From NCBI GenBank assembly GCA_013289685.1, contig JABCZL010000010.1:236017-300016 (forward strand): 64,000 nucleotides of DNA. Direction: 5' to 3'. The stretch comes from Acidobacteriota bacterium. GTDB taxonomy: Bacteria > Acidobacteriota > Terriglobia > Terriglobales > Acidobacteriaceae. The position numbers and the translations under genes were made by a program. This document shows, in pieces, positions 15,285 to 30,122 of the stretch (positions within the stretch are counted from its first letter, which is position 1; each line of letters opens with the position of its first letter). The notes below the pieces were generated by a model. The model ran no database searches and was not told the DNA's origin. It worked only from the letters and a program-made list of their open reading frames with translations.

Positions 15285-16790
15285 ATGGGCATTGCAGTTT
15301 CCCCGCAGATTCATCCGCAGGTCGCGGAGTTCATCGACAAACCACGAAAGATGCTGATCAACGGCAGGTGGGTGAACGCCGCCTCCGGAAAAACCTTTCC
15401 TACATACAATCCAGCCACCGGCGAGGTTCTTGCTCAGGTCGCGGAAGGCGATCGCGAGGACATCAATCAAGCCGTGAAGGCCGCTCGCAACGCCTTTGAC
15501 AACGGCCCCTGGCGCCGGATGAGTGCGTCTGAGCGTGGCCGCCTGATCTGGAAGCTCGCCGATCTGCTCGAGCAACATACCGAGGAGTTCGGTTACATCG
15601 AGAGTCTCGACAATGGCAAGCCGCTGAACATTGCCAAGGCCGCCGACGTCCCGCTCGCAGTCGACTTGCTCCGCTACATGGCGGGATGGGCGACCAAGAT
15701 CGAGGGCAACACCATTCCGCTCTCGGTCCCGTACACGCCGGGCGCGAAATATCTGGCGTACACGCTGCGCGAGCCGGTCGGAGTTGCAGGGCAAATCATC
15801 CCGTGGAATTTCCCGCTTCTGATGGCCGCATGGAAACTTGGTCCGGCACTGGCCACGGGTTGCACGGTGGTGCTGAAACCGGCCGAGCAAACCCCGCTCT
15901 CCGCGCTGCGTTTGGGCGATCTGATCATGGAGGCCGGCTTCCCCGAAGGTGTGGTCAATATTGTCTCCGGCTACGGTGAAACCGCAGGCGCGGCGCTGGC
16001 CGCGCATCCCGACGTCGACAAAATCGCTTTCACAGGATCGACGGAAGTCGGCAAGCTGATTGTCCACGCTGCCGCCGGAAATCTGAAGAAGGTTTCTTTG
16101 GAGTTGGGAGGTAAGTCTCCGAACGTTGTATTCAAAGACGCCGATCTTGAGATCGCCATCCCCGGCTCCGCCAGCGCCATTTTCTTCAACCACGGACAGT
16201 GCTGCTGCGCGGGTTCACGGCTGTACGTCGAGAAGGCGGTGTACGACCAGGTGGTTGAAGGAGTCGCGGAGCAGGCCCGGAAGATTAAGGTTGGATCGGG
16301 CCTTGAGCCTGACTCCCAGATGGGCCCGCTGGTTTCAGAAGAACAGTTGAATCGCGTATGCGGATATCTGGAATCCGGATTCTCTCAAGGCGCAAAGGCC
16401 CTGGCCGGTGGCCACAAGGCTGGTGACCGCGGATACTTCGTGGAGCCCACGGTGCTTGTCAACACGCAAGAAAACATGAAGGTCGTGCAGGAAGAAATTT
16501 TCGGACCGGTCGTGGCGGCGATGCCATTCACCGACCCGGAGGAAATCATTCCCCGGGCCAACAACAGCGAGTACGGCCTGGCTGCCGCGGTGTGGACGCG
16601 CGATATCGGGAAGGCACATCGCATGGCCGAACAGCTTCGCGCCGGGACCGTCTGGATCAACTGCTACAACATCTTCGATGCGGCCCTGCCGTTCGGGGGA
16701 TACAAGCAGTCCGGATGGGGCCGCGAGATGGGCCACGACGCTCTCAGCCTCTACACACAAACCAAGTCGGTGTGCACGCGAATCGCTTAG
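15285..16790 (+). CDS. aldehyde dehydrogenase
   Basis: KMLINGRWVNAASGKTFPTYNPATGEVLAQVAEGDREDINQAVKAARNAFDNGPWRRM, FTGSTEVGKLI, LELGGKSPN, FNHGQCCCAGSRL. Strong Shine-Dalgarno aaggagg just upstream. Confidence 0.95.
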   Translation: MGIAVSPQIHPQVAEFIDKPRKMLINGRWVNAASGKTFPTYNPATGEVLAQVAEGDREDINQAVKAARNAFDNGPWRRMSASERGRLIWKLADLLEQHTEEFGYIESLDNGKPLNIAKAADVPLAVDLLRYMAGWATKIEGNTIPLSVPYTPGAKYLAYTLREPVGVAGQIIPWNFPLLMAAWKLGPALATGCTVVLKPAEQTPLSALRLGDLIMEAGFPEGVVNIVSGYGETAGAALAAHPDVDKIAFTGSTEVGKLIVHAAAGNLKKVSLELGGKSPNVVFKDADLEIAIPGSASAIFFNHGQCCCAGSRLYVEKAVYDQVVEGVAEQARKIKVGSGLEPDSQMGPLVSEEQLNRVCGYLESGFSQGAKALAGGHKAGDRGYFVEPTVLVNTQENMKVVQEEIFGPVVAAMPFTDPEEIIPRANNSEYGLAAAVWTRDIGKAHRMAEQLRAGTVWINCYNIFDAALPFGGYKQSGWGREMGHDALSLYTQTKSVCTRIA

Positions 16791-16925: not shown

Positions 16926-17498
16926 CTATCTTTCCATCAGAAGAACTTTCTCCGCTTCATCGATCTCAGTCAGCTTAACCTCGATGACTTCATTTGCGGT
17001 GGTCTGCACGTTGCGGCCGACGAACGTGGCCTCGACCGGAATCTCCCGGTGCCCGCGGTCAATCAGTACGCAAAGTTGCACTCGCCGCGGCCTGCCGTGG
17101 GAAAAGAGAGCGTCCAGCGCCGCTCGCGTCGTGCGCCCGGTGTACAGAACATCATCGACCAGCACAATGTTCTTATCCTCGATCTCAAACCCGATCTCCT
17201 TTTCCTGCACCACCGGCTTGGGTCCGAGGGTCGAGAGATCGTCGCGGTAGAAAGTGATATCCAAAGTCCCCACGGGCACCTTCGCAGCGTTCTCGATGCG
17301 CGTGATAATCTTGCCCAATCGTTCTGCGATGGGAACTCCGCGGCGGCGAATTCCTACCAGCCCCAGGCCATCGACCCCGCCATTCTTTTCGACAATTTCG
17401 TACGCCAGTCGCACCAGCGTGCGCTCAATTTCCGAGGCGGACATGAGTTGTGCCTTCTGACGAAGGCCTGTCTTGCGCGAAGGATTCTTTGCATTCAT
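16926..17498 (-). CDS. pyrR: PyrR: bifunctional pyr operon regulator / uracil phosphoribosyltransferase
   Basis: ASEIERTLVRLAYEIVEKN, LVGIRRRGVPIAERL, ITFYRDDLSTLGPKPVV, NIVLVDDVLYTGRTTRAALDAL (PRPP loop), LIDRGHREIPVEATFVGRNVQT. Confidence 0.94.
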   Translation of the reverse strand: MNAKNPSRKTGLRQKAQLMSASEIERTLVRLAYEIVEKNGGVDGLGLVGIRRRGVPIAERLGKIITRIENAAKVPVGTLDITFYRDDLSTLGPKPVVQEKEIGFEIEDKNIVLVDDVLYTGRTTRAALDALFSHGRPRRVQLCVLIDRGHREIPVEATFVGRNVQTTANEVIEVKLTEIDEAEKVLLMER

Positions 17499-17603: not shown

Positions 17604-19457
17604 TTACTCCACTAGGAAGTTTTGCGGCTTGGACTTGTCGACCGGCTCTGCAGGTTCGATCTTCGCTTGCAAGGCCGAGTCCGGGCAGGGACAATCGGTT
17701 CTAATGGTGCGAGCCAGCGGAGGGTTCCCCTGGCACACCGACACCAAATCCACGGCCTCGGGATTTTGGCTTGCCGCATCCGTCGCCACGATCCCCACAC
17801 CTTTGTTCCTACCCAGAGCCTTGGCTCGATACAGGGCTGCATCCGCCAGCGCAATCGACTCTTCCGCACAAATCGCTTCAAAGGCGCCGCGGCTCCAGGG
17901 ATACGCCGCCCACCCGACCGAGCACGTCTTTCTTACCGAGATGCCGTGGCCTAGATCGAACGATTCCGACGCCATCACTTCCAGAACGCGGCTGCAGAAT
18001 GCCGGCGTGCCCGATGGATCGGTGGACCGGCTCATGATCAGGAATTCTTCTCCGCCCCAGCGCACCAGCACATCAGACTTGCGCACCACTGTAGAGAGCC
18101 TTTGGGCCACGAGTTGCAGCAACCGGTCTCCCGCCGGGTGACCGTGGCGGTCGTTCACTTCCTTGAAGAAATCCACGTCGACCATGATGAACACCAGATC
18201 GCGATGATCCATTTTTCGGATGTCAGTGCCCCGCGCGCGCTGGTAATTTCGCAGCACCTGTCCGGCCTCGGCCGTGAGTATCTCTTCCAGATAGCGCCGG
18301 TTCCACACCCCGGTCAGCACGTCGGTGAAAGAAATTTCCTGCAGTTCGAGATTCTTGCGCTGCAGTTCCAGCCCGTGCCAGCGCAGCGAATGTTCCTTGT
18401 TCTCCAGTTCATCCTTGAGCCGGCACATTTCATCCAGGTTGTGCCGCGATAATCGCAGCAGGCTGAGTAATTCCTGATCCAGCAAATGCTGCTTCAGAAA
18501 TACCAGAGCGCCCATCACCAGCATAACCGCGACCGTCAGCAACAGCCGGTAGGTGCGCACCTTCTGGGGCGCATCTCCGCCGAATTGCGCCCACGCCACC
18601 ATCAACGGAGTGACGAACACCGCCACCATGGCGATACGCGCTTTCCAAATTTCGTAACCGCGAGTTGAAGGCTCCTCGATGGGATCCTGGGTCGTGTCTT
18701 CGCGCGGCAGGAAGCCAATCCGCACGAACCAGACCATTCCGGCCACCAACGGCACATCGAACAAACTGCCGGTGTAATAGAGATGCAAATCGATCGCTTC
18801 GCTGGCCATGAGCGACGCGACACAATACAGCAGAGTTGCTACGAAGAGATGGAAGTAGATTCTGCGCCACGCGCCGTGGCTCCGCCGCCACACCAGGATC
18901 AGTCCCGCCGCCAGTACGAGTTCTTCGGAAACATAGAGCAAGTCAAAACTTCTGCCGTAGAGAGATTCGACGGGGTGCACGTACTGCCACGGGATCACGA
19001 CAAACAGATACAGAAACAACCACCATGCAAACAGCAGTGCAAAGTCGAGGGTTCCGACTCGGATGGTGCGATTATCCCGTTGAACATGCGGCTGAATCGC
19101 CACCGCAGCGGTCATGGGAACGATATGGAGGAAAAGAATGACATCGCCGACAAAAGGATTAGGCGCCTCGTGCCGCAGGTAGACTTCTATATAAGTCCAC
19201 ATGACTTGCGAGACCAGCCACATTCCCAGGCCCAGGCCCATAAGCGCCCAGAATAGCCGGGCCTTCGGTGAAGCGGTTTTTACATTGGCGAGAACGGCGA
19301 CGGTGGCGCAGAACAGAATGAGATTTTGCAGAATGTCGCCAAAAGCAGTGAGAACAAATCCGCGCGGCGCCAGAAGAGACAGCACAAAGTGAACGCACAC
19401 CACGGCGCACACGATGGCCGTCCACCTCCGGGCGTGCTGAAGCGGAGAATTTCCCAC
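17604..19457 (-). CDS. membrane-anchored diguanylate cyclase (GGDEF domain)
   Basis: About 10 N-terminal hydrophobic segments, then SFTDVLTGVWNRRYLEEIL..., FIMVDVDFFKEVNDRHGHPAGDRLLQ, RWGGEEFLIM. RKSD (RxxD I-site) lies 5 aa before GGEEF. Confidence 0.93.
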   Translation of the reverse strand: MGNSPLQHARRWTAIVCAVVCVHFVLSLLAPRGFVLTAFGDILQNLILFCATVAVLANVKTASPKARLFWALMGLGLGMWLVSQVMWTYIEVYLRHEAPNPFVGDVILFLHIVPMTAAVAIQPHVQRDNRTIRVGTLDFALLFAWWLFLYLFVVIPWQYVHPVESLYGRSFDLLYVSEELVLAAGLILVWRRSHGAWRRIYFHLFVATLLYCVASLMASEAIDLHLYYTGSLFDVPLVAGMVWFVRIGFLPREDTTQDPIEEPSTRGYEIWKARIAMVAVFVTPLMVAWAQFGGDAPQKVRTYRLLLTVAVMLVMGALVFLKQHLLDQELLSLLRLSRHNLDEMCRLKDELENKEHSLRWHGLELQRKNLELQEISFTDVLTGVWNRRYLEEILTAEAGQVLRNYQRARGTDIRKMDHRDLVFIMVDVDFFKEVNDRHGHPAGDRLLQLVAQRLSTVVRKSDVLVRWGGEEFLIMSRSTDPSGTPAFCSRVLEVMASESFDLGHGISVRKTCSVGWAAYPWSRGAFEAICAEESIALADAALYRAKALGRNKGVGIVATDAASQNPEAVDLVSVCQGNPPLARTIRTDCPCPDSALQAKIEPAEPVDKSKPQNFLVE

Positions 19458-19538: not shown

Positions 19539-20819
19539 TTACGAAAGTGCGACGGAAAAATGCTGCACGAAACGGTAAACATCCTGGTATGAGTTGTATA
19601 GCGGCACCGCGGCAACTCGAAAAGTATCCGGTTCACGCCAGTCTCCGATCACCCCTGCCGCCGCTAAGCGGTCGCATAGTTCGCGGCCTTTGCCGCGTAC
19701 GCGGATCGAGAGTTGCGCACCCCGGCGCTCCGGTTCACGCGGCGTGATGACGGAAAACTTCAACTTCGGAGAAGCGTGTTGTCCAAGGAGAAATTCCATG
19801 TATGCCGTAAGCGACACGCTCTTGGCACGCAAGCGGTCCAGGCCGGCCTCGGAAAGAACTTCCATGGAAGCGCGGAGAGGGGCCAGTGCCAGAATCGGAG
19901 GATTGCTCAATTGCCAGCCCTCCGCCCCCGCCATCGGCCGAAAATCCGGGCCCATCTGGAAGCGAGTCTTCTCGTCGTGCCCCCACCATCCCGCAAAGCG
20001 CGGCAGTTCCCACGCACGGGCGTGGCGCTCGTGGACAAAACATCCTGCAACACATCCCGGACCGCCGTTCAAATATTTGTAACTGCACCACACCGCGAAA
20101 TCGGGTCCCCAGTCGTGAAGCCGCAGAAGTATATTTCCGGCAGCGTGAGCCAGGTCAAATCCCACGACACATCCTTTGCGCCGCCCCGCTCTTGTGATGC
20201 CCGGCATGTCGAAGACTTGCCCCGTGACGTAGTTCACTCCGCCCAGCAGGATCAGAGCGATCGACGCGCCTTCGCGTTCGATCAGCGACTCAATGTCTTC
20301 GTCCCGCATGCAGGACTCGCCGTCACGCGGAGTAAGTTTGAGCAGCGCCGTGGCAGGGTCAAATCCATGGAAGTGAATTTGCGACTTCACCGCATATTGA
20401 TCCGAAGGAAAAGCGCCGCGTTCCACCAAGATCTTGTGTCTCTCCGTTGTGGGACGGTAGAACGACGCCATCATCAGGTGAAGGTTCACCGTCAAAGAGT
20501 TCATGACGACGACCTCAGTCGGAAGCGCCCCAACCAGCGCCGCCGTCTGCTGCGTTAGCAGCCGGTGATAGGGCATCCACGGATTCTTTCCATGGAAGTG
20601 CCCTTCGACGCCGAGTTGCGCCCAATCGCGCATACCCTGCTCCAGATAAACGCTGGCTGTTTTCGGTTGCAGCCCGAGGGAGTGGCCGCACAGATAAATG
20701 CTGTCATCCCCTCCGTTGGTCATTGGAAGGCAGAAGCGTCCGCGAAAGTGCGCCAACGGATCGCTGGCATCCATCGCAACCGCAAACCCTTCGCCGGCCT
20801 GAAACGAGGTGCCGGTCAC
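19539..20819 (-). CDS. kynU: kynureninase
   Basis: IYLCGHSLGLQPKTASVYLEQGMRDWAQLGVEGHF, VVMNSLTVNLHLMMASFYRPT, FDLAHAAGN, VWCSYKYLNGGPGCVAGCFVHERHA (PLP Lys). GTG start at 20819 overlaps the kmo stop; the ORF-track ATG is at 20876. Confidence 0.93.
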   Translation of the reverse strand: MTGTSFQAGEGFAVAMDASDPLAHFRGRFCLPMTNGGDDSIYLCGHSLGLQPKTASVYLEQGMRDWAQLGVEGHFHGKNPWMPYHRLLTQQTAALVGALPTEVVVMNSLTVNLHLMMASFYRPTTERHKILVERGAFPSDQYAVKSQIHFHGFDPATALLKLTPRDGESCMRDEDIESLIEREGASIALILLGGVNYVTGQVFDMPGITRAGRRKGCVVGFDLAHAAGNILLRLHDWGPDFAVWCSYKYLNGGPGCVAGCFVHERHARAWELPRFAGWWGHDEKTRFQMGPDFRPMAGAEGWQLSNPPILALAPLRASMEVLSEAGLDRLRAKSVSLTAYMEFLLGQHASPKLKFSVITPREPERRGAQLSIRVRGKGRELCDRLAAAGVIGDWREPDTFRVAAVPLYNSYQDVYRFVQHFSVALS

Positions 20820-22183
20820 GAAACCATCTCCAGAGGCGTCAGTTGGCTGCGAATCAAACGGTCGGCTTTGCTCCAATCCAGATCTTCCATGCGCTCGACC
20901 GAATCACAAAGTTCCGTGAGCATGCGGTCCTGCACTTGTCCCCGCTTCAAGGCAGTCGCATACGGAATACGGTGAAACGTCACCATCGCGTACTTAGGCA
21001 CAAAAAGCTGCGGATACTTCGCCTCCAGTGCTAGCTCAACTTTCTTGCGAAACAGGAATCGTGGGTCGGCCACACGATCTCTCATCTCCACAAAGTTTTC
21101 GACTGCCAAGTCGGCAATCGCATCCGTGTTGACTTTTCGCGCCTCCTCGAACTCGCTGAACACGCGTCTCCAGTCGGCGCCGTGCTGGTCGAGTAGTTCC
21201 AGCAGGCACGTGCAGTCTTCGAAACCGCAATTGATTCCTTGTCCAAAGAAAGGAACAATCGCATGCGCGGCATCCCCCAACAGCAGAGCCCGCCCGTCCA
21301 CATGCCACGGCGAGCATTTGACGGTCACCATCGCGCCCGTGGGATTAGCGAAAAAGTTGTCCGCCAGGTCGGGCATCAGAGGAATCGCGTCCGGAAACCG
21401 GGACTGGAACAACTTGATCACGGCAGACGCTGTGGCCAATTGGGCAAAACTGTCCGCCCCTTCAAATGGCAAAAACAGAATGCACCCGAATGTCCCGTCA
21501 ACATTGGGCAACGCGATCAACATGAAGTTGCCGCGCGGCCAGATGTGCAGAGCATGCGTTTCCAGAACATGTTTTCCGCCTGGACCGGCAGGAATGGTCA
21601 GCTCCTTGTAGCCGTAATCCAGATACTGCTGCGAAAAGTTGAAGCGGCTCAGCTTCAACATCTCGCCTCGAATCGCCGAAGCCGACCCGTCGCACCCGAT
21701 CACCACGCGTGACTCAATCGTTCGCTCTTCCCCAATCCGCTCATCTCGCAACTGAAGCGCTCCCGTCTTGAGATCGATCCCGGTGCAGCGTTGCTGAAAA
21801 TGAATCCTCACGCCCTGGTCTTCTGCGGCATTCATCAGGGCAATATTTAATTCGGCGCGGGAAATCGAATGGATGACCTCAGCCTCATTCTTTCCATAGG
21901 GCTGGAACGTGATCTCCGATGTTACCGAGTGCATCATCCTTCCCTTCATCGGAATGATGATCTTTCGCATCTCGTTCCACTGACCCGCTTCGGAGAGCGC
22001 GTGAATCCCGCGGGTGGATAGGGCCAGGTTGATCGAGCGTCCGGCGCTGATGCGGACGCTCCGCATATCGGGCCGTCTCTCGTATATCTCGACGTTGAAG
22101 CCACGCTTCACCAGGCCTAGAGCCAGAAGAGGTCCGTTGAGCCCGGCACCAATCAGTGAAATGGTTTCGGCTTTGGCAGTCAT
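20816..22183 (-). CDS. kmo: kynurenine 3-monooxygenase
   Basis: FAD motif ISLIGAGLNGPLLALGLVKRGFNVEIYERRPDMR, AGRSINLALSTRGIHAL, LLLGDAAHAIVPFFGQGINCGFEDC. Confidence 0.95.
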   Translation of the reverse strand: MTAKAETISLIGAGLNGPLLALGLVKRGFNVEIYERRPDMRSVRISAGRSINLALSTRGIHALSEAGQWNEMRKIIIPMKGRMMHSVTSEITFQPYGKNEAEVIHSISRAELNIALMNAAEDQGVRIHFQQRCTGIDLKTGALQLRDERIGEERTIESRVVIGCDGSASAIRGEMLKLSRFNFSQQYLDYGYKELTIPAGPGGKHVLETHALHIWPRGNFMLIALPNVDGTFGCILFLPFEGADSFAQLATASAVIKLFQSRFPDAIPLMPDLADNFFANPTGAMVTVKCSPWHVDGRALLLGDAAHAIVPFFGQGINCGFEDCTCLLELLDQHGADWRRVFSEFEEARKVNTDAIADLAVENFVEMRDRVADPRFLFRKKVELALEAKYPQLFVPKYAMVTFHRIPYATALKRGQVQDRMLTELCDSVERMEDLDWSKADRLIRSQLTPLEMVS

Positions 22184-22228: not shown

Positions 22229-24085
22229 CTACTCCGTCAGCAGCGTGCGCGCCTCCCACAATTCCGGGAAGAATTTCTTGTCCAGCGTCAGTTTCAAATA
22301 AGACGACCCTGCGGTCCCGCCCGTTCCCATGCGCACGCCAATCACGCGCTCCACCAGTTGAATGTGGCGCAGCCTCCAACTCACCACGAGTTCGTCGAAT
22401 TCTGTAAGCCGCTCGCAGACGTCAATCCAGTCCCGATTGCTGCGTTCATCCCGATACAAAGAAAGCACCGCCCGGGCCCGCGCGTCGAACCCCTCACGCT
22501 CGTTCGCCTTGTCATCGATCTGAAGCTTTCCCATGGTCCGCAATGCATCGAAGAAAACATCGTGCAAAGACGGCTCCCTCAATCTCCGTTCCAGAAGAGC
22601 GTGCGCTTCCGGCGTCGGCCGGTGATAACGCAGCATCTTTTCGTCCTTCAGGCCGCAAAGGAATTCCAACTCGCGAAACTGTTCCGACTGGAATCCGCTC
22701 GCCGGCTCCAGCTTGCCGCGGAACGCCATAAAGTGCGTGGGCAACATGGTTTCAAGGATGGTGAACTGTTCCACCAGCACTCGCGTGATTTCCGTGCAGC
22801 GCCGCAATAGCCGCGCCGCTTCGTAAACCTCGTCGCGCGATTTTGGATTCGCGCCCGCTCCCCGCAGATTTGCGACGACCGCATCCAAATCGTGCAGCAA
22901 TTCCTTGAACCACAGTTCGTAAGTCTGGTGCACGATGATGAACAGCAATTCGTCGTGATGCTGCGGCGATGACTGCGAGTGTTGCAAGCTCAACAACTCC
23001 GGAACTTTCAGGTACGAACTGTAAGTCAGTTGCTCGCCGTGTGGCACCGTGGGCGCCGTTGTTGTCTCTTGGCCTGTCGTCGACGCACTGTCGCGTTTTA
23101 GACCGAGAAAATCCGCCGCATTCCCGCCCAGCAGGAGTTCTTTTGCCTCTGCGGTCAAAGCACTCGATCGAATCAATGTCCCCACGCGATGTTCGCCCAG
23201 CGGAAAGGGATAGTCTGAGCCCAACATCACTCGCTCCGCTCCCATGGTTCCGACGAGAAACTGCAGCGCGCGCTCGTCGAAGACCGCCGAATCCACATAG
23301 AAACGATTCACATACTGGCTGGGAGGCAGTTCGCAAACGCCGTGCGCCACCGGATGATGTTGCCAGGCATTCTCCAACCGTCCCAGCAGAAATGTGAAAC
23401 CGCCCCCGCCGTGTGCGAAGCAAATACGCAGAGTCTTCGGCAATTTGTCGAACGCTCCGCCCAGGATCATCGCCACAATGCCAAGCTGCGTCTCGGCGGG
23501 CATGCCGACGGTCCACGCCATCATGTACTTCGGCATGCGCTGCGACCCCAGCATGTCCCAGGGATGCACCAACACCGCCGCACCTTGATCCGCGCAGTGA
23601 TGCAGGAAGGTCACAATGCCGGGATCGTCCAGATTTTTTTCTCCAACGTGATTGCCGATTTGCACTCCCAGATGGCCCGCACGCATGCACCGGGTCACTT
23701 CCTGACACGACGCGTCAATATCCTGCAGTGGAACCTGGCACAGCGACTTCAGTCGTCCCTTGCCCTGCGCGCACAGTTCCAGCGCCGCGTCATTGAACAG
23801 TCGCGCGCAATCCAGCGCATGCTCCACCGGGCGCTCGTAGGCGAACAGCACCGGCGTGGCCGAGAGCACTTGCATCTCGACTCCGTCGCGATCCATTTCG
23901 TTGAGCCGCACTTCCGGATCCCAGCATGCGGAATAAACCTGGCGAAAAAATCGATCACCCACCATGATTTCCGCCTTGCCAGGCTCGGTGTGCTTGATCC
24001 ACGGCCAGTTGGGAGTGCCGTAGCGCGCCGCCAGATCCGGCCAGGTGCGTGGAAAGAAATGATTATGGATGTCGATGACTGGCAT
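22229..24085 (-). CDS. apparent fusion: ACMSD-like amidohydrolase (N-terminus) + tryptophan 2,3-dioxygenase (C-terminus)
   Basis: Single 618-aa ORF. N-terminus: MPVIDIHNHFFPRTWPDLAARYG (HxH), FAHGGGGFTFLLGRLENAW, RVMLGSDYPFPLGE. C-terminus: LTYSSYLKVPELLSLQ...HDELLFIIVHQTYELWFKELLHDLD, SWRLRHIQLVERVIGVRMGTGGTAGSSYLKLTL. Linker SASTTGQETTTAPTVPHGE. Confidence 0.9.
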   Translation of the reverse strand: MPVIDIHNHFFPRTWPDLAARYGTPNWPWIKHTEPGKAEIMVGDRFFRQVYSACWDPEVRLNEMDRDGVEMQVLSATPVLFAYERPVEHALDCARLFNDAALELCAQGKGRLKSLCQVPLQDIDASCQEVTRCMRAGHLGVQIGNHVGEKNLDDPGIVTFLHHCADQGAAVLVHPWDMLGSQRMPKYMMAWTVGMPAETQLGIVAMILGGAFDKLPKTLRICFAHGGGGFTFLLGRLENAWQHHPVAHGVCELPPSQYVNRFYVDSAVFDERALQFLVGTMGAERVMLGSDYPFPLGEHRVGTLIRSSALTAEAKELLLGGNAADFLGLKRDSASTTGQETTTAPTVPHGEQLTYSSYLKVPELLSLQHSQSSPQHHDELLFIIVHQTYELWFKELLHDLDAVVANLRGAGANPKSRDEVYEAARLLRRCTEITRVLVEQFTILETMLPTHFMAFRGKLEPASGFQSEQFRELEFLCGLKDEKMLRYHRPTPEAHALLERRLREPSLHDVFFDALRTMGKLQIDDKANEREGFDARARAVLSLYRDERSNRDWIDVCERLTEFDELVVSWRLRHIQLVERVIGVRMGTGGTAGSSYLKLTLDKKFFPELWEARTLLTE

Positions 24086-24102: not shown

Positions 24103-24645
<543 letters not shown>

Positions 24646-25074
24646 TTATTTCATTTTCTCCGGTTTGTAAGCCATAGCTCGGATTTCGATCAGCAAATGC
24701 GGATGCGGCAACTGGTGCACGGCCACGGTCGTTCGAGCCGGACCATCGTAACCGAAGAACTCGCCGTAGACCTCGTTGTATCCTGCGAAATCGTTCATGT
24801 TCACCAGGTAGGTCGTCACTTCGACAACATCTTTAAGGTGCGCACCTACGCTTTGCAGAATGTCGCGGACGTTCTCGAGGACGGCTTTCGTCTGGGCTCG
24901 AATATCAAGATGAGTCGTCCCAAACTCATCCACCTGTGCACCGGCGATTGAATTATCGGCGCGGCGCGCGCTGGTCCCGGACACAAACAGAAAATCGCCC
25001 GCGCGCTTGATGTGTGGATACTTGCCGCGCGGCTTCGCCTTCCCCGCCATCACCTGGCTTTCGACTTTCCCCAT
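24646..25074 (-). CDS. RidA/YjgF-family protein, probable 2-aminomuconate deaminase
   Basis: [38 protein letters not shown]-like [43 protein letters not shown]; operon context. Confidence 0.85.
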
Positions 25075-25096: not shown

Positions 25097-26587
25097 TTAC
25101 AGCCGAATACAAATATTGTTCAGTTCTGAATAAAAATTCAGGGAGTGCATGCCGCCTTCGCGTCCGATCCCCGAAAGCCCGGCGCCGCCAAACGGGGTTC
25201 GCAGGTCCCGCAGAAACCAGCAATTCACCCAGGTAATGCCCACGTTCATTTGCTGCGCGACGCGGTGACCGCGCTTCAGATTCGTCGTCCAGATCGACGC
25301 CGCCAAGCCATACTTCGTATCGTTCGCCATGCTCACCGCTTCCTCTTCCGTGTCGAAGGGTGCGACATGGCACACCGGCCCGAAAATTTCTTCTTTCACG
25401 CAGCGCGCCGACTCCGGCAACCCAGTATAGATCGTCGGTTGCACGTAGAAACCGTTGTCGAGCTCATTACCGAACTCGGGAATCCCGCCGCCGGTCACCA
25501 CTTCCGCTCCCTCTTCGCGGGCCAGCCGGTAATACGACATCACCTTCCCACGATGTTGCTCGGAAATCAGCGGCCCGAGATCGGTGGTCTTCTCCAGCGG
25601 AGATCCAATGCGCAGGCTCTCGGCCTTGCGTTTGAGCGCCTCGACGAATTTACCAAACATCGCTCGCTCGACGTAAACCCGCTCCGTGCACAGACAAACC
25701 TGGCCGGTATTGAGGAATATGCTTTCGCTCACTCCATTCACCGCTTCTTCAAAGTCACAGTCGGCGAACACGATCGCGGCGTTCTTACCGCCAAGTTCAA
25801 ACGAAACTGGTTTTACCGAAGCTGCCACGGCCTTCATAATCGCGGCTCCAGTCTGGGACTCGCCGGTGAAGGTCACCGCATTCACGTCGGGATGCTGAGT
25901 GAGAAATTCGCCTGCCGAGTTCGGCCCGAACCCGTGTACCACGTTATAGACTCCGTCAGGAATTCCAGCTTCCTTCATGACCTCGGCGAGCAGCGTCGCA
26001 GTCGCCGGAGTTTCCTCAGAAGGTTTCACGACCACGGTGTTGCCGCACGCCAAGGCAGGCGCAACTTTCCACGTCAGCAGCAAGAGAGGGAGATTCCAGG
26101 GCGTAATAATTCCCACCACTCCGAGCGGCTTGCGCACGGCATAGTTCAGCGTGCTCTTGCCGTCCGGCGTTTCGGTCTGAAAGGATTCGAGAGCCGCGGT
26201 CTTGATGACGTCCGCAAACACCCGGAAATTTGCTGCCGCTCGCGGAACATCCAACTTCGAGGCCAGTGCCACCGGCTTGCCGGTATCTGCGACCTCGGCC
26301 GCGACAAAACAATCGAACCTGGCTTCGATCGCGTCGGCCACTCGATGCAGACGCGCAGCGCGGTCGCGGATTCCCAGCCGCGCCCACTCTCCTCGCAATG
26401 CCTTGCGGGCGGCCTGCACGGCATCATCGACCAATCCTTGATCTGCTTCTGTGACCTGCGCGATCACGCTGCCCTCCGCCGGGTTCACATCAGCGAACTC
26501 CCGCTTCCCGCGCACGAACTGCCCGTCGATGTAATTCAGGATGAACTTCAAGTTGGCGAGAACCCCGCCGCATCGTAACAGCCTCAC
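25097..26587 (-). CDS. 2-aminomuconate 6-semialdehyde / 2-hydroxymuconic semialdehyde dehydrogenase
   Basis: ALDH motifs ([67 protein letters not shown]) and kynurenine operon context. Exact start uncertain. Confidence 0.88.
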
Positions 26588-26617: not shown

Positions 26618-27454
26618 TCAGTTGTTGCGTTCCTGCAAATATCTGTGCAGCGCATCCTGCCATGTGGGCATGGCAATTCCATACCGCTGCAGGCTCTTCG
26701 ACGAAAGAACGGAGTACGCCGGACGCGGCGCCGGACGCGCCATTTGCTGACTGGTGACTGGACGCATCTCGGTGGCGAGCCCCGCGCCCTTCACAATTTC
26801 GCGGGCGAATTCAAACCACGAGCAATCCCCGGCGTTCGTCACGTGCACAATTCCGCGGGCCTGTGCGCGGCATAGCGAGATGATCGCCCTCGCCAAGTCC
26901 ACGGTGTAGGTTGGACTGCCTCGCTGGTCATCGACCACATCCAACGTCGGCCGAGTTGCCGCGAGTTTGAGAATTGTATCCGGAAAGCATTTTCCGCCTG
27001 TCCCAAACAGCCACGAAGTCCGCGCGATGCAGCACTCCGCCATCACGTCAAGCAGCCGAACCTCCGCCTCCGCCTTCGACCTTCCGTAAACACTTTGCGG
27101 ATTGCGCGCGTCTCCCGTTTCGTAGGGCGACGTTTTCTTTCCATCGAACACATAATCTGAACTGAGAAAAAGCAGCTTCGCGCCAGTCTGCTGCGCGGCC
27201 TTGGCGACATTCACTGCCCCATCGCGATTCACTGCGTATGCCAGATCCGGGTGACTCTCGCACTCGTCCACGTTGGTGTAGGCCGCTGCCAGCACAATCC
27301 ATTCGGGGCAAGTTCTCTCCGCCACTTCCTGTACTCTCCCGGCAGCGCGAATGTCTACGTCGCGCGAGCTGAGGCCGATAACCTCGTCGCCCCGCCATTC
27401 GCGCATGAGCACCTTGCCCAGAAGACCCGAGGCGCCAAAAATTGTTACTTTCAT
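26618..27454 (-). CDS. rfbD: dTDP-4-dehydrorhamnose reductase
   Basis: VTIFGASGLLGKVLMREW, AVNRDGAVNVAKAAQQTGAKLLFLSSDYVFDGKKTSPYET, SVYGRSKAEAEVRL. Confidence 0.94.
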   Translation of the reverse strand: MKVTIFGASGLLGKVLMREWRGDEVIGLSSRDVDIRAAGRVQEVAERTCPEWIVLAAAYTNVDECESHPDLAYAVNRDGAVNVAKAAQQTGAKLLFLSSDYVFDGKKTSPYETGDARNPQSVYGRSKAEAEVRLLDVMAECCIARTSWLFGTGGKCFPDTILKLAATRPTLDVVDDQRGSPTYTVDLARAIISLCRAQARGIVHVTNAGDCSWFEFAREIVKGAGLATEMRPVTSQQMARPAPRPAYSVLSSKSLQRYGIAMPTWQDALHRYLQERNN

Positions 27455-27473
27455 TCAGTGATTTTTCCCGCGG

Positions 27474-28055
27474 CTATGCGAACGTCTCAGCGTCGTGCAG
27501 AGCCATGCCGCGCTGGTCTTTCGCCGACACGATGGGATCACCTTCCAGTTTCCAATCAATCTTCAACCCCGGATCATTCCACATCAGCGTGCGTTCGTGC
27601 TCCGGCGCATAGTAATCGGTGGCCTTGTACAGGACCTGCGCTTTTTCCGAAATCACGAGGAATCCGTGCGCAAAGCCTGCTGGAATCCACAGCATACGTT
27701 TGTTCTCGCCCGACAGCCGCACCGCTTCCCACCGGCCAAACGTCGGAGAAGTCCGGCGCACGTCTACCGCAACATCGAGGATCTCGCCTTCCACTGCACG
27801 GACCAATTTTCCTTGCGGCTGTTTGATCTGATAATGCAACCCGCGCAGCACATTCCGTCGCGAACTGGAATGATTGTCCTGCACGAACCGTTCCTTGATT
27901 CCCAATTCTGCAAAAGCCCGCTCGTTGTAGCTCTCCAGGAAAAATCCCCGCTCGTCACCAAACACTCGCGGCTCGAGAATGACGACGCCGGGAAGAGAAG
28001 TCGGGATTTTTCTGATCGCATCCATTTCTGATTTCATCCAGGCTTCGCCGCACAC
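27474..28055 (-). CDS. rfbC: dTDP-4-dehydrorhamnose 3,5-epimerase
   Basis: GVVILEPRVFGDERGFFLESYNERAF, FVQDNHSSSRRNVLRGLHYQ, LWIPAGFAHGFLV. Confidence 0.96.
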   Translation of the reverse strand: MCGEAWMKSEMDAIRKIPTSLPGVVILEPRVFGDERGFFLESYNERAFAELGIKERFVQDNHSSSRRNVLRGLHYQIKQPQGKLVRAVEGEILDVAVDVRRTSPTFGRWEAVRLSGENKRMLWIPAGFAHGFLVISEKAQVLYKATDYYAPEHERTLMWNDPGLKIDWKLEGDPIVSAKDQRGMALHDAETFA

Positions 28056-28071
28056 CTGAACTGCGACAATC

Positions 28072-28965
28072 TCAAAACACTTTTTCCCGCAAAAGCTGCA
28101 GCAGGTAGGCGCCGTAGCTGCTGTTTTTCATGCTGCTGCCAATCTTTTCCAGTTCGGCGGCTGTGATGTAGCCGGAGCGATATGCGATTTCCTCCGGACA
28201 CGCCACCATCAACCCCTGCCTTTTCTCGATCGCCTGGATGTAGAGCGCAGCATCCATCAGCGATTCGTGAGTACCCGTATCGAGCCACGCCATGCCCCGC
28301 CCCATTACCACCACTTCCAGTTTTCCTTCCTTCAAGTACGCCCGATTGACGTCAGTGATCTCCAGTTCGCCGCGCGCGCTCGGCTTTAGCGATCGCGCAA
28401 TCTCCACCACCTGGCCATCGTAGAAATAAAGTCCCGTGACTGCATATCGCGATTTCGGCAGCTTTGGTTTTTCCTCGATGCTCAGCGCACGCCCGTGCGC
28501 ATCAAACTCAACCACCCCGTAGCGCTCCGGATCGTGCACAGGATAAGCGAACACCCTGGCGCCGTGAACTTTCGCCGCCGCCTCGCGCAGATCTTTCCCC
28601 AGATCGTGCCCGTAAAAAATATTGTCGCCCAGCACCAGAGCACAGGGACTGCCATCCAGAAACTCTTTCCCCAGCAGAAATGCCTGTGCGATCCCCTCGG
28701 GCTTGAGCTGCGCCAGATATCGCAGGCGAATCCCATACTGGCTCCCGTCGCGCAGCAGCGCCTGAAATCGGGGCGCATCTTCGGGAGTGGAAATCACCAG
28801 GATGTCCCGGATGCCCGCCAGCATCAGCGTGCACAGCGGGTAATAAATCATGGGCTTGTTGTATACGGGAAGCAGGCTCTTCCCCATGACCTGCGTGACC
28901 GGATACAGACGCGTACCCGACCCTCCCGCCAGAATGATGCCTTTGTATCGCGTGCTTTCTTGCAT
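28072..28965 (-). CDS. rfbA: glucose-1-phosphate thymidylyltransferase
   Basis: [52 protein letters not shown]. Confidence 0.97.
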
Positions 28966-28998
28966 GATCCGTCTGTCTTTCGCTCGAGTTGTTCGGCA

Positions 28999-30060
28999 CT
29001 ACCCCGAATAGTGCGTGGCCACCCACTGCCGATAACTCCCACTGGTTACATCCCGCACCCACGCCTCATTTTCAAGATACCAGCTCACCGTCTTGCGAAT
29101 GCCGGTTTCAAATGTGGCTTTCGGCTTCCATCCCAGTTCGCGTTCGATCTTGCGCGCGTCCATCGCATAGCGGCGGTCGTGGCCCGGCCGATCCTTCACA
29201 AACGTGATCAGCTCGCGGCGGGATCGTCCCGCTTGCGGTAGTTTCTCATCCACAAGATCGCAGATCGTCTGCACGATCTCAATGTTCGGCTTCTCGTTCC
29301 AGCCACCGATGTTGTAAGTTTCTCCCGGCCTGCCCCGCCGCAGCACGGTTGCAATCGCCTCGCAGTGGTCCTCCACGTAAAGCCAGTCGCGGACGTTCTT
29401 GCCATCCCCGTAAACCGGCAGAGCCTTACCATCGCGCGCGTTGAGGATCATCAGCGGAATCAGTTTTTCCGGGAATTGAAATCGCCCGTAATTATTCGAG
29501 CAGTTCGTAGTGAGGGTCGGCAGGCCATAAGTGTGGTGATAGGCGCGCACCAGATGATCGGACGCAGCCTTCGACGCGGCATAGGGACTGTTCGGGGCGT
29601 ACGGAGTAATTTCGCTGAACGGCGGATCCTGCGGGCCGAGCGAGCCGTACACTTCGTCCGTGGACACATGCAGGAACCGAAATCGATTCCGCCGGTCATC
29701 CAGGAGCGCGCTCCAATAGGCTCGCGTCTCTTCCAGCAGGGCGAACGTTCCGTCGACATTGGTGCGAATGAAATCTTCCGGACCCCGGATCGAACGGTCC
29801 ACGTGGCTTTCCGCGGCGAAATGCACGATCGCACCGGGCTGGTGCTTCTCCAGCAACTGCCGGGCCAGGGCGCGATCACCGATATCGCCGTGGATAAACT
29901 GGTAACGGTCGGCTGCGATGCCCTCCAGATTGTGCAGGTTCCCTGCGTAGGTGAGCTTATCGAGGTTAATGATGAACCAGGACTCGTCCAGCATTTGTTG
30001 CAGGACGAAGTTGGAGCCGATGAACCCAGCGCCGCCGGTGACCAGAAGAGTATTTCGCAT
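28999..30060 (-). CDS. rfbB: dTDP-glucose 4,6-dehydratase
   Basis: [21 protein letters not shown] (start moved to ATG at 30060), [48 protein letters not shown]. Confidence 0.96.
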
Positions 30061-30122
30061 GTTCAGTGTGGCAAGCGTCCGCGCAGCTGCGCCGCGCCCT
30101 TCGCACGCCACGCAGTCGATTG

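Follow-up and report, generated by a model that had tools for sequence, protein, structure and literature searches.

An open reading frame joining ACMSD and TDO in a kynurenine operon of uncultured acidobacteria: a predicted bifunctional enzyme

The window, i.e., the whole stretch of 64,000 nucleotides that was analysed, carries on one strand an operon with the gene order AMSDH - RidA/aminomuconate deaminase - 3HAO - [ACMSD::TDO] - KMO - KYNU (Table 1), in which ACMS decarboxylase (ACMSD) and tryptophan 2,3-dioxygenase (TDO) share a single reading frame. To judge from its genes, this operon is the catabolic 3-hydroxyanthranilate branch of tryptophan degradation. A gene for kynurenine formamidase was not recognised within the operon; the sole PF04199 match of the genome, which was not assigned as the formamidase, is located on a different contig, beside a gene resembling a thiamine-diphosphate decarboxylase by sequence. 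Directly upstream and on the same strand are the rmlBACD genes for dTDP-rhamnose (26618-30111, minus), with about 30 bp separating rmlD from AMSDH; this neighbourhood was present in most Sulfotelmatobacter relatives with enough flanking sequence, but a look at the operon's surroundings in other genera did not reveal it. Past the operon, genes for a further aldehyde dehydrogenase (15285-16790, plus), a phosphoribosyltransferase (16926-17498, minus) and a GGDEF protein (17604-19457, minus) follow, which are syntenic in many members of the genus.

Table 1. Genes of the operon, and domains of the fusion, with their positions in the window.
Feature	Position	Strand	Evidence and remarks
2-Aminomuconate 6-semialdehyde dehydrogenase (AMSDH), first gene of the operon	25097..26587	minus	PDB 7bzv/4i1w, 733 bits; PF00171
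RidA-type 2-aminomuconate deaminase	24646..25074	minus	PF01042; best PDB match 6izh (2-aminomuconate deaminase), E 7e-57
3-Hydroxyanthranilate 3,4-dioxygenase (HAO)	24103..24636	minus	PF06052; NF009763 and TIGR03037 over cut-off
ACMSD::TDO fusion ORF	22229..24085	minus	618 aa plus stop; ATG start
ACMSD domain, residues 1-332	23090..24085	minus	PF04909; alignment to 2hbv
Linker, residues ~333-351 (~19 residues)	23033..23089	minus	Ser/Thr/Pro-rich; predicted disordered
TDO domain, residues 352-618	22232..23032	minus	PF03301; alignment to 2nw7
Kynurenine 3-monooxygenase (KMO)	20816..22183	minus	PDB 6lkd/5fn0, E 1e-102
Kynureninase (KYNU), last gene of the operon, overlaps KMO end	19539..20876	minus	TIGR01814, 440 bits (cut-off 246)

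A preliminary description of this DNA had reported one uninterrupted frame of 618 amino acids containing both domains in complete form, without naming a strand, and a Ser/Thr/Pro-rich linker near 23040-23100. The list of open reading frames, Pfam and a sequence search of the PDB agree with the former and place the frame on the minus strand, the opposite strand of the same stretch being interrupted by stops; the linker, at 23033-23089 (Table 1), is consistent with the position given earlier. A search of the organism's own genome returned the fusion gene as its sole match for TDO and as its sole match for ACMSD.

In the N-terminal half, Amidohydro_2 (PF04909) was matched at residues 4-329 with 120 bits (cut-off 26.4) over the whole profile (1-289), and the closest solved protein for residues 2-328 was the ACMSD 2hbv (E 1e-119). 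Alignment to 2hbv showed that the predicted zinc ligands H7, H9, H174 and D291 are all present, as well as H225, R48, R236 and W191. For the ACMSD of Pseudomonas fluorescens, roles were described for the zinc residues His9, His11, His177 and Asp294 and for His228, Arg51, Arg239 and Trp194, with Arg239 being contributed by the adjacent subunit, across the interface (PMC11650718). The counterpart of this residue acting across the dimer is R236, according to the same alignment. The gene for HAO adjoins the fusion gene, and that for AMSDH is part of the same operon.

In the C-terminal half, Trp_dioxygenase (PF03301) starts at residue 352 with 192.7 bits (cut-off 34.9), and the closest solved protein for residues 352-615 was the Xanthomonas campestris enzyme XcTDO (2nw7, E 2e-51). 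Alignment to 2nw7 located the distal H386, F382, the substrate arginine R456, T588 and the axial H574, the predicted heme ligand, which we equate with His240 of XcTDO; the loops are PASG (461-464) and GTGG (587-590). Immediately past the linker, Y355, Y358 and L359 match the N-terminal arm of TDO, which completes the tryptophan pocket of the neighbouring subunit (PMC5071832). The narrow equivalog TIGR03036 gave 240 bits, under its cut-off of 390.7; this model is narrower than the TDO enzyme, since those free TDOs of the phylum that come from full kynurenine operons fall short as well (about 237-248 bits; a Sphingopyxis TDO reached 358). In each half, the catalytic residues checked were invariant in 19 fusions of the same genus. 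By sequence, both halves look intact: the first is predicted to decarboxylate ACMS, and the second would be a catalytically complete TDO of bacterial type. In relatives, long frames (e.g., 739, 761 and 1125 aa) had hinted at further TDO fusions; they were rejected, as they overlap the neighbouring KMO or KYNU genes.

The preliminary description had proposed a search for frames matching both families and had named a sequencing error at the junction as a reason for doubt. The search yielded 44 distinct intact fusion sequences (39 plus five with a differing TDO motif) from Candidatus Sulfotelmatobacter and, within its family, four or more further genera, a group of uncultured acidobacteria of soil and peat; an error at the junction is ruled out by these uninterrupted frames, and a frame extending through both domains in 44 distinct homologues is far beyond chance. 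An artefact of assembly or sequencing, a general possibility with any single assembly, has a practically negligible probability and is refuted by the same frame in metagenome-assembled genomes (MAGs) that were obtained independently, at different sites and by different studies, as well as in the one-contig genome G440. TDO matches were obtained in 21 of 25 genomes (24 relatives of the same genus and the genome itself); 19 of these frames were intact fusions, one was broken at a run of N (G014/L089) and one by a short deletion within the ACMSD half (G021/L101), both in MAG contigs and both probably faults of assembly.

Among 397 genomes of the order, fusions occurred in genera g1, g220, g221, g231 and g260, and the gene was altogether missing from some genomes of g1; since genus g252 (see below) moreover carries the two enzymes unfused, the fusion is not essential, which weighs against the scaffold reading given below. 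When the species set of GTDB was scanned with patterns within the ACMSD half, about 40 loci of Acidobacteria covering both halves were obtained, mostly from MAGs assigned to Candidatus Sulfotelmatobacter or to unnamed Acidobacteriaceae. No single match spanning both halves was obtained in the rest of a 396-genome sample of the phylum, in 399 genomes of Pseudomonadota or in 72,556 plasmids; the remaining phyla were covered through the GTDB scan and the plasmid search.

A structure model of the fusion chain as a monomer, built from a diverse alignment of 88 sequences, had a pLDDT of 92.1 and a pTM of 0.59, with values below 50 only at residues 335-349; it replaced an earlier model from a genus-only alignment (pLDDT 63). 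Foldseek matched the halves to solved enzymes (TMt 0.95 for ACMSD and about 0.85 for TDO). The model suggests that the two domains fold independently and that their mutual placement is not fixed. Cleavage of the chain within the linker, which would yield ordinary separate enzymes, is in keeping with the disorder predicted there; this reading is improbable, as the main genus has no conserved linker sequence able to serve as a protease site.

Measured from the end motif of ACMSD to the start motif of TDO, the linkers of 39 fusions are 20-57 residues long. An ATG is found in five of them, each time at a different place, and the linker of the fusion in the window contains no Shine-Dalgarno sequence; internal re-initiation, giving a free TDO, was rejected on these grounds. 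In eight pairs of sequences, dN was 0.007-0.078 in both halves and dS was 0.24-1.7, with a linker dN of 0.15-0.53. Thus, purifying selection acts strongly on both halves, and the linker drifts yet stays in frame. The low dN of the domains relative to dS and the lack of a shared start in the linker mean that the two halves, as well as the frame across their join, are being preserved, with no evident separate start for TDO. Neither length nor sequence of the linker is conserved, which counts against a precise scaffold.

In g252, represented by two genomes (G560 and G620), ACMSD and TDO are separate genes that are read in different frames, with an overlap of 8 nt between the stop of the former and the start of the latter. 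The order AMSDH-RidA-HAO-ACMSD-TDO-KMO-KYNU is that of the fusion operon (the G620 stretch was seen without AMSDH); identity to the fusion is 73-75% for TDO and 58-60% for ACMSD. Other families of the phylum share the pathway genes in an operon HAO-ACMSD-KYNU-KMO-TDO, where two genes lie between the unfused ACMSD and TDO. The TDO half shares 75% identity with free TDOs of f73, a family of the same phylum in which TDO adjoins a kynureninase-like gene and a nearby ACMSD was not found; its identity with free TDOs from its own family is only about 40%. The ACMSD half clusters in a tree with proteobacterial ACMSDs, apart from those of other families of the phylum. Thus, the two halves have different closest relatives.

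In a TDO tree rooted with f73 and other free TDOs, g252 nests inside the fusions; a single clade of fusions was rejected (AU p 0.017), although this group was put to the test after the tree had been seen and g252 comprises only two genomes. A tree of the concatenated operon placed g252 beside the fusion of G470 (98/96; midpoint root). A position within fused clades implies either fission or repeated fusion; one fusion with subsequent fission would require fewer steps, neither course being proved. The N-terminus of the free TDO of g252 (L172, L173) contains an SGGCP stretch, of which GCP is retained in the longer linkers of eight deep fusions from other lineages (L134, L136, L148, L149, L174-L177) and absent in the main genus; it may be a relict of the N-terminus of a free TDO. 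One could also speculate that a Cys-Pro beside a heme enzyme is a heme-responsive motif.

The overlapping genes of g252 show how a fusion could have arisen near-neutrally, i.e., when adjacent and translationally coupled genes for ACMSD and TDO were joined by an indel or the loss of a stop, with little gain beyond co-translation. This origin, a real though lesser possibility and the main rival, fits almost as well as a scaffold: the linker evolves nearly freely, and the unfused state coexists with the fused ones and, on the TDO tree, nests inside them. What speaks against it is the retention of the frame across at least five genera and 44 distinct sequences, together with the likely technical nature of the two seeming breaks within the main genus.

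TDO starts the kynurenine pathway by converting tryptophan to N-formylkynurenine, and ACMSD comes in several steps further on, where it decarboxylates ACMS ahead of the cyclisation to quinolinate. Formamidase, KMO, KYNU and HAO act between them, so that the established order of the pathway upholds the earlier claim of non-consecutive steps; the fusion therefore passes no substrate from one half to the other. Channelling between the two active sites is very improbable, because the substrate of ACMSD is not N-formylkynurenine and those four enzymes intervene. In its favour, the fused enzymes belong to one pathway, and a complex of HAO, ACMSD and AMSDH was proposed in published models (PMC10143591).

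As a monomer, ACMSD is inactive; the dimer is active and the tetramer more so (PMC10143591). TDO is a homotetramer (PMC5071832). The fusion would fix a 1:1 dose of the entry enzyme and the branch-point enzyme, and the obligate TDO homotetramer could serve as a core concentrating four tethered ACMSD domains, which would thereby be favoured into active dimers or tetramers. This is the preferred reading, to which we give about even credence: a bifunctional chain, with a zinc-dependent ACMSD at the N-terminus, a short flexible linker and a heme TDO at the C-terminus, in which the TDO tetramer would hold ACMSD in active oligomers at equal dosage. The architecture of the chain is shown by its single frame, its conservation and its intact active sites, whereas activities, oligomeric state and benefit are what we infer. 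As the preliminary description had proposed, stoichiometry or a scaffold has more in its favour than channelling, in view of the published properties of both enzymes; the scaffold effect itself stays conjectural. Rather doubtful is the further proposal that the oligomeric state of the fused ACMSD, and with it the activity, is set by the tetramerisation of TDO, a process dependent on heme and tryptophan; if true, the gatekeeper enzyme would act as a switch at the branch point late in the same pathway.

Fused pathway enzymes as such are common, and the ACMSD and TDO families are known drug targets. A description of an ACMSD::TDO fusion was not found in the open literature, in agreement with the preliminary description, beyond which the present analysis adds the minus strand, the operon context, the conservation in several genera, the differing relatives of the halves, the split genus and the relict linker motif. 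Regulation of the kynurenine pathway at the ACMSD branch point has been called unknown (PMC10143591). With entry and branch-point enzymes fused in nature, and with naturally split relatives to set beside them, ACMSD oligomerisation as a control point becomes directly testable, and the fusion could also be a ready-made bifunctional catalyst.

Comparison with known systems shows 52% identity over the N-terminal half to the ACMSD of P. fluorescens (PDB 2hbv, 4ifk), with the zinc ligands and both substrate arginines shared; that protein is a free-standing enzyme of 334 aa, whereas here it is fused. The TDO of X. campestris (PDB 2nw7, 7p46) is about 36% identical and has the heme and Trp-site residues and the PASG/GTGG loops in common, but it is free-standing, and its Tyr113 corresponds to Phe452 in the fusion. 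MarE, a TDO-like monooxygenase forming 2-oxindole, shares the TDO fold but has DATG/SLGGR loops (PMC11904535); a function of this type was rejected, since the loops of the fusion are of the TDO type. In fungal FluG, an amidohydrolase domain is likewise connected by a linker to another enzyme on its C-terminal side, although, unlike in ACMSD::TDO, the partner is a glutamine-synthetase-like ligase from another pathway (PMC6478659).
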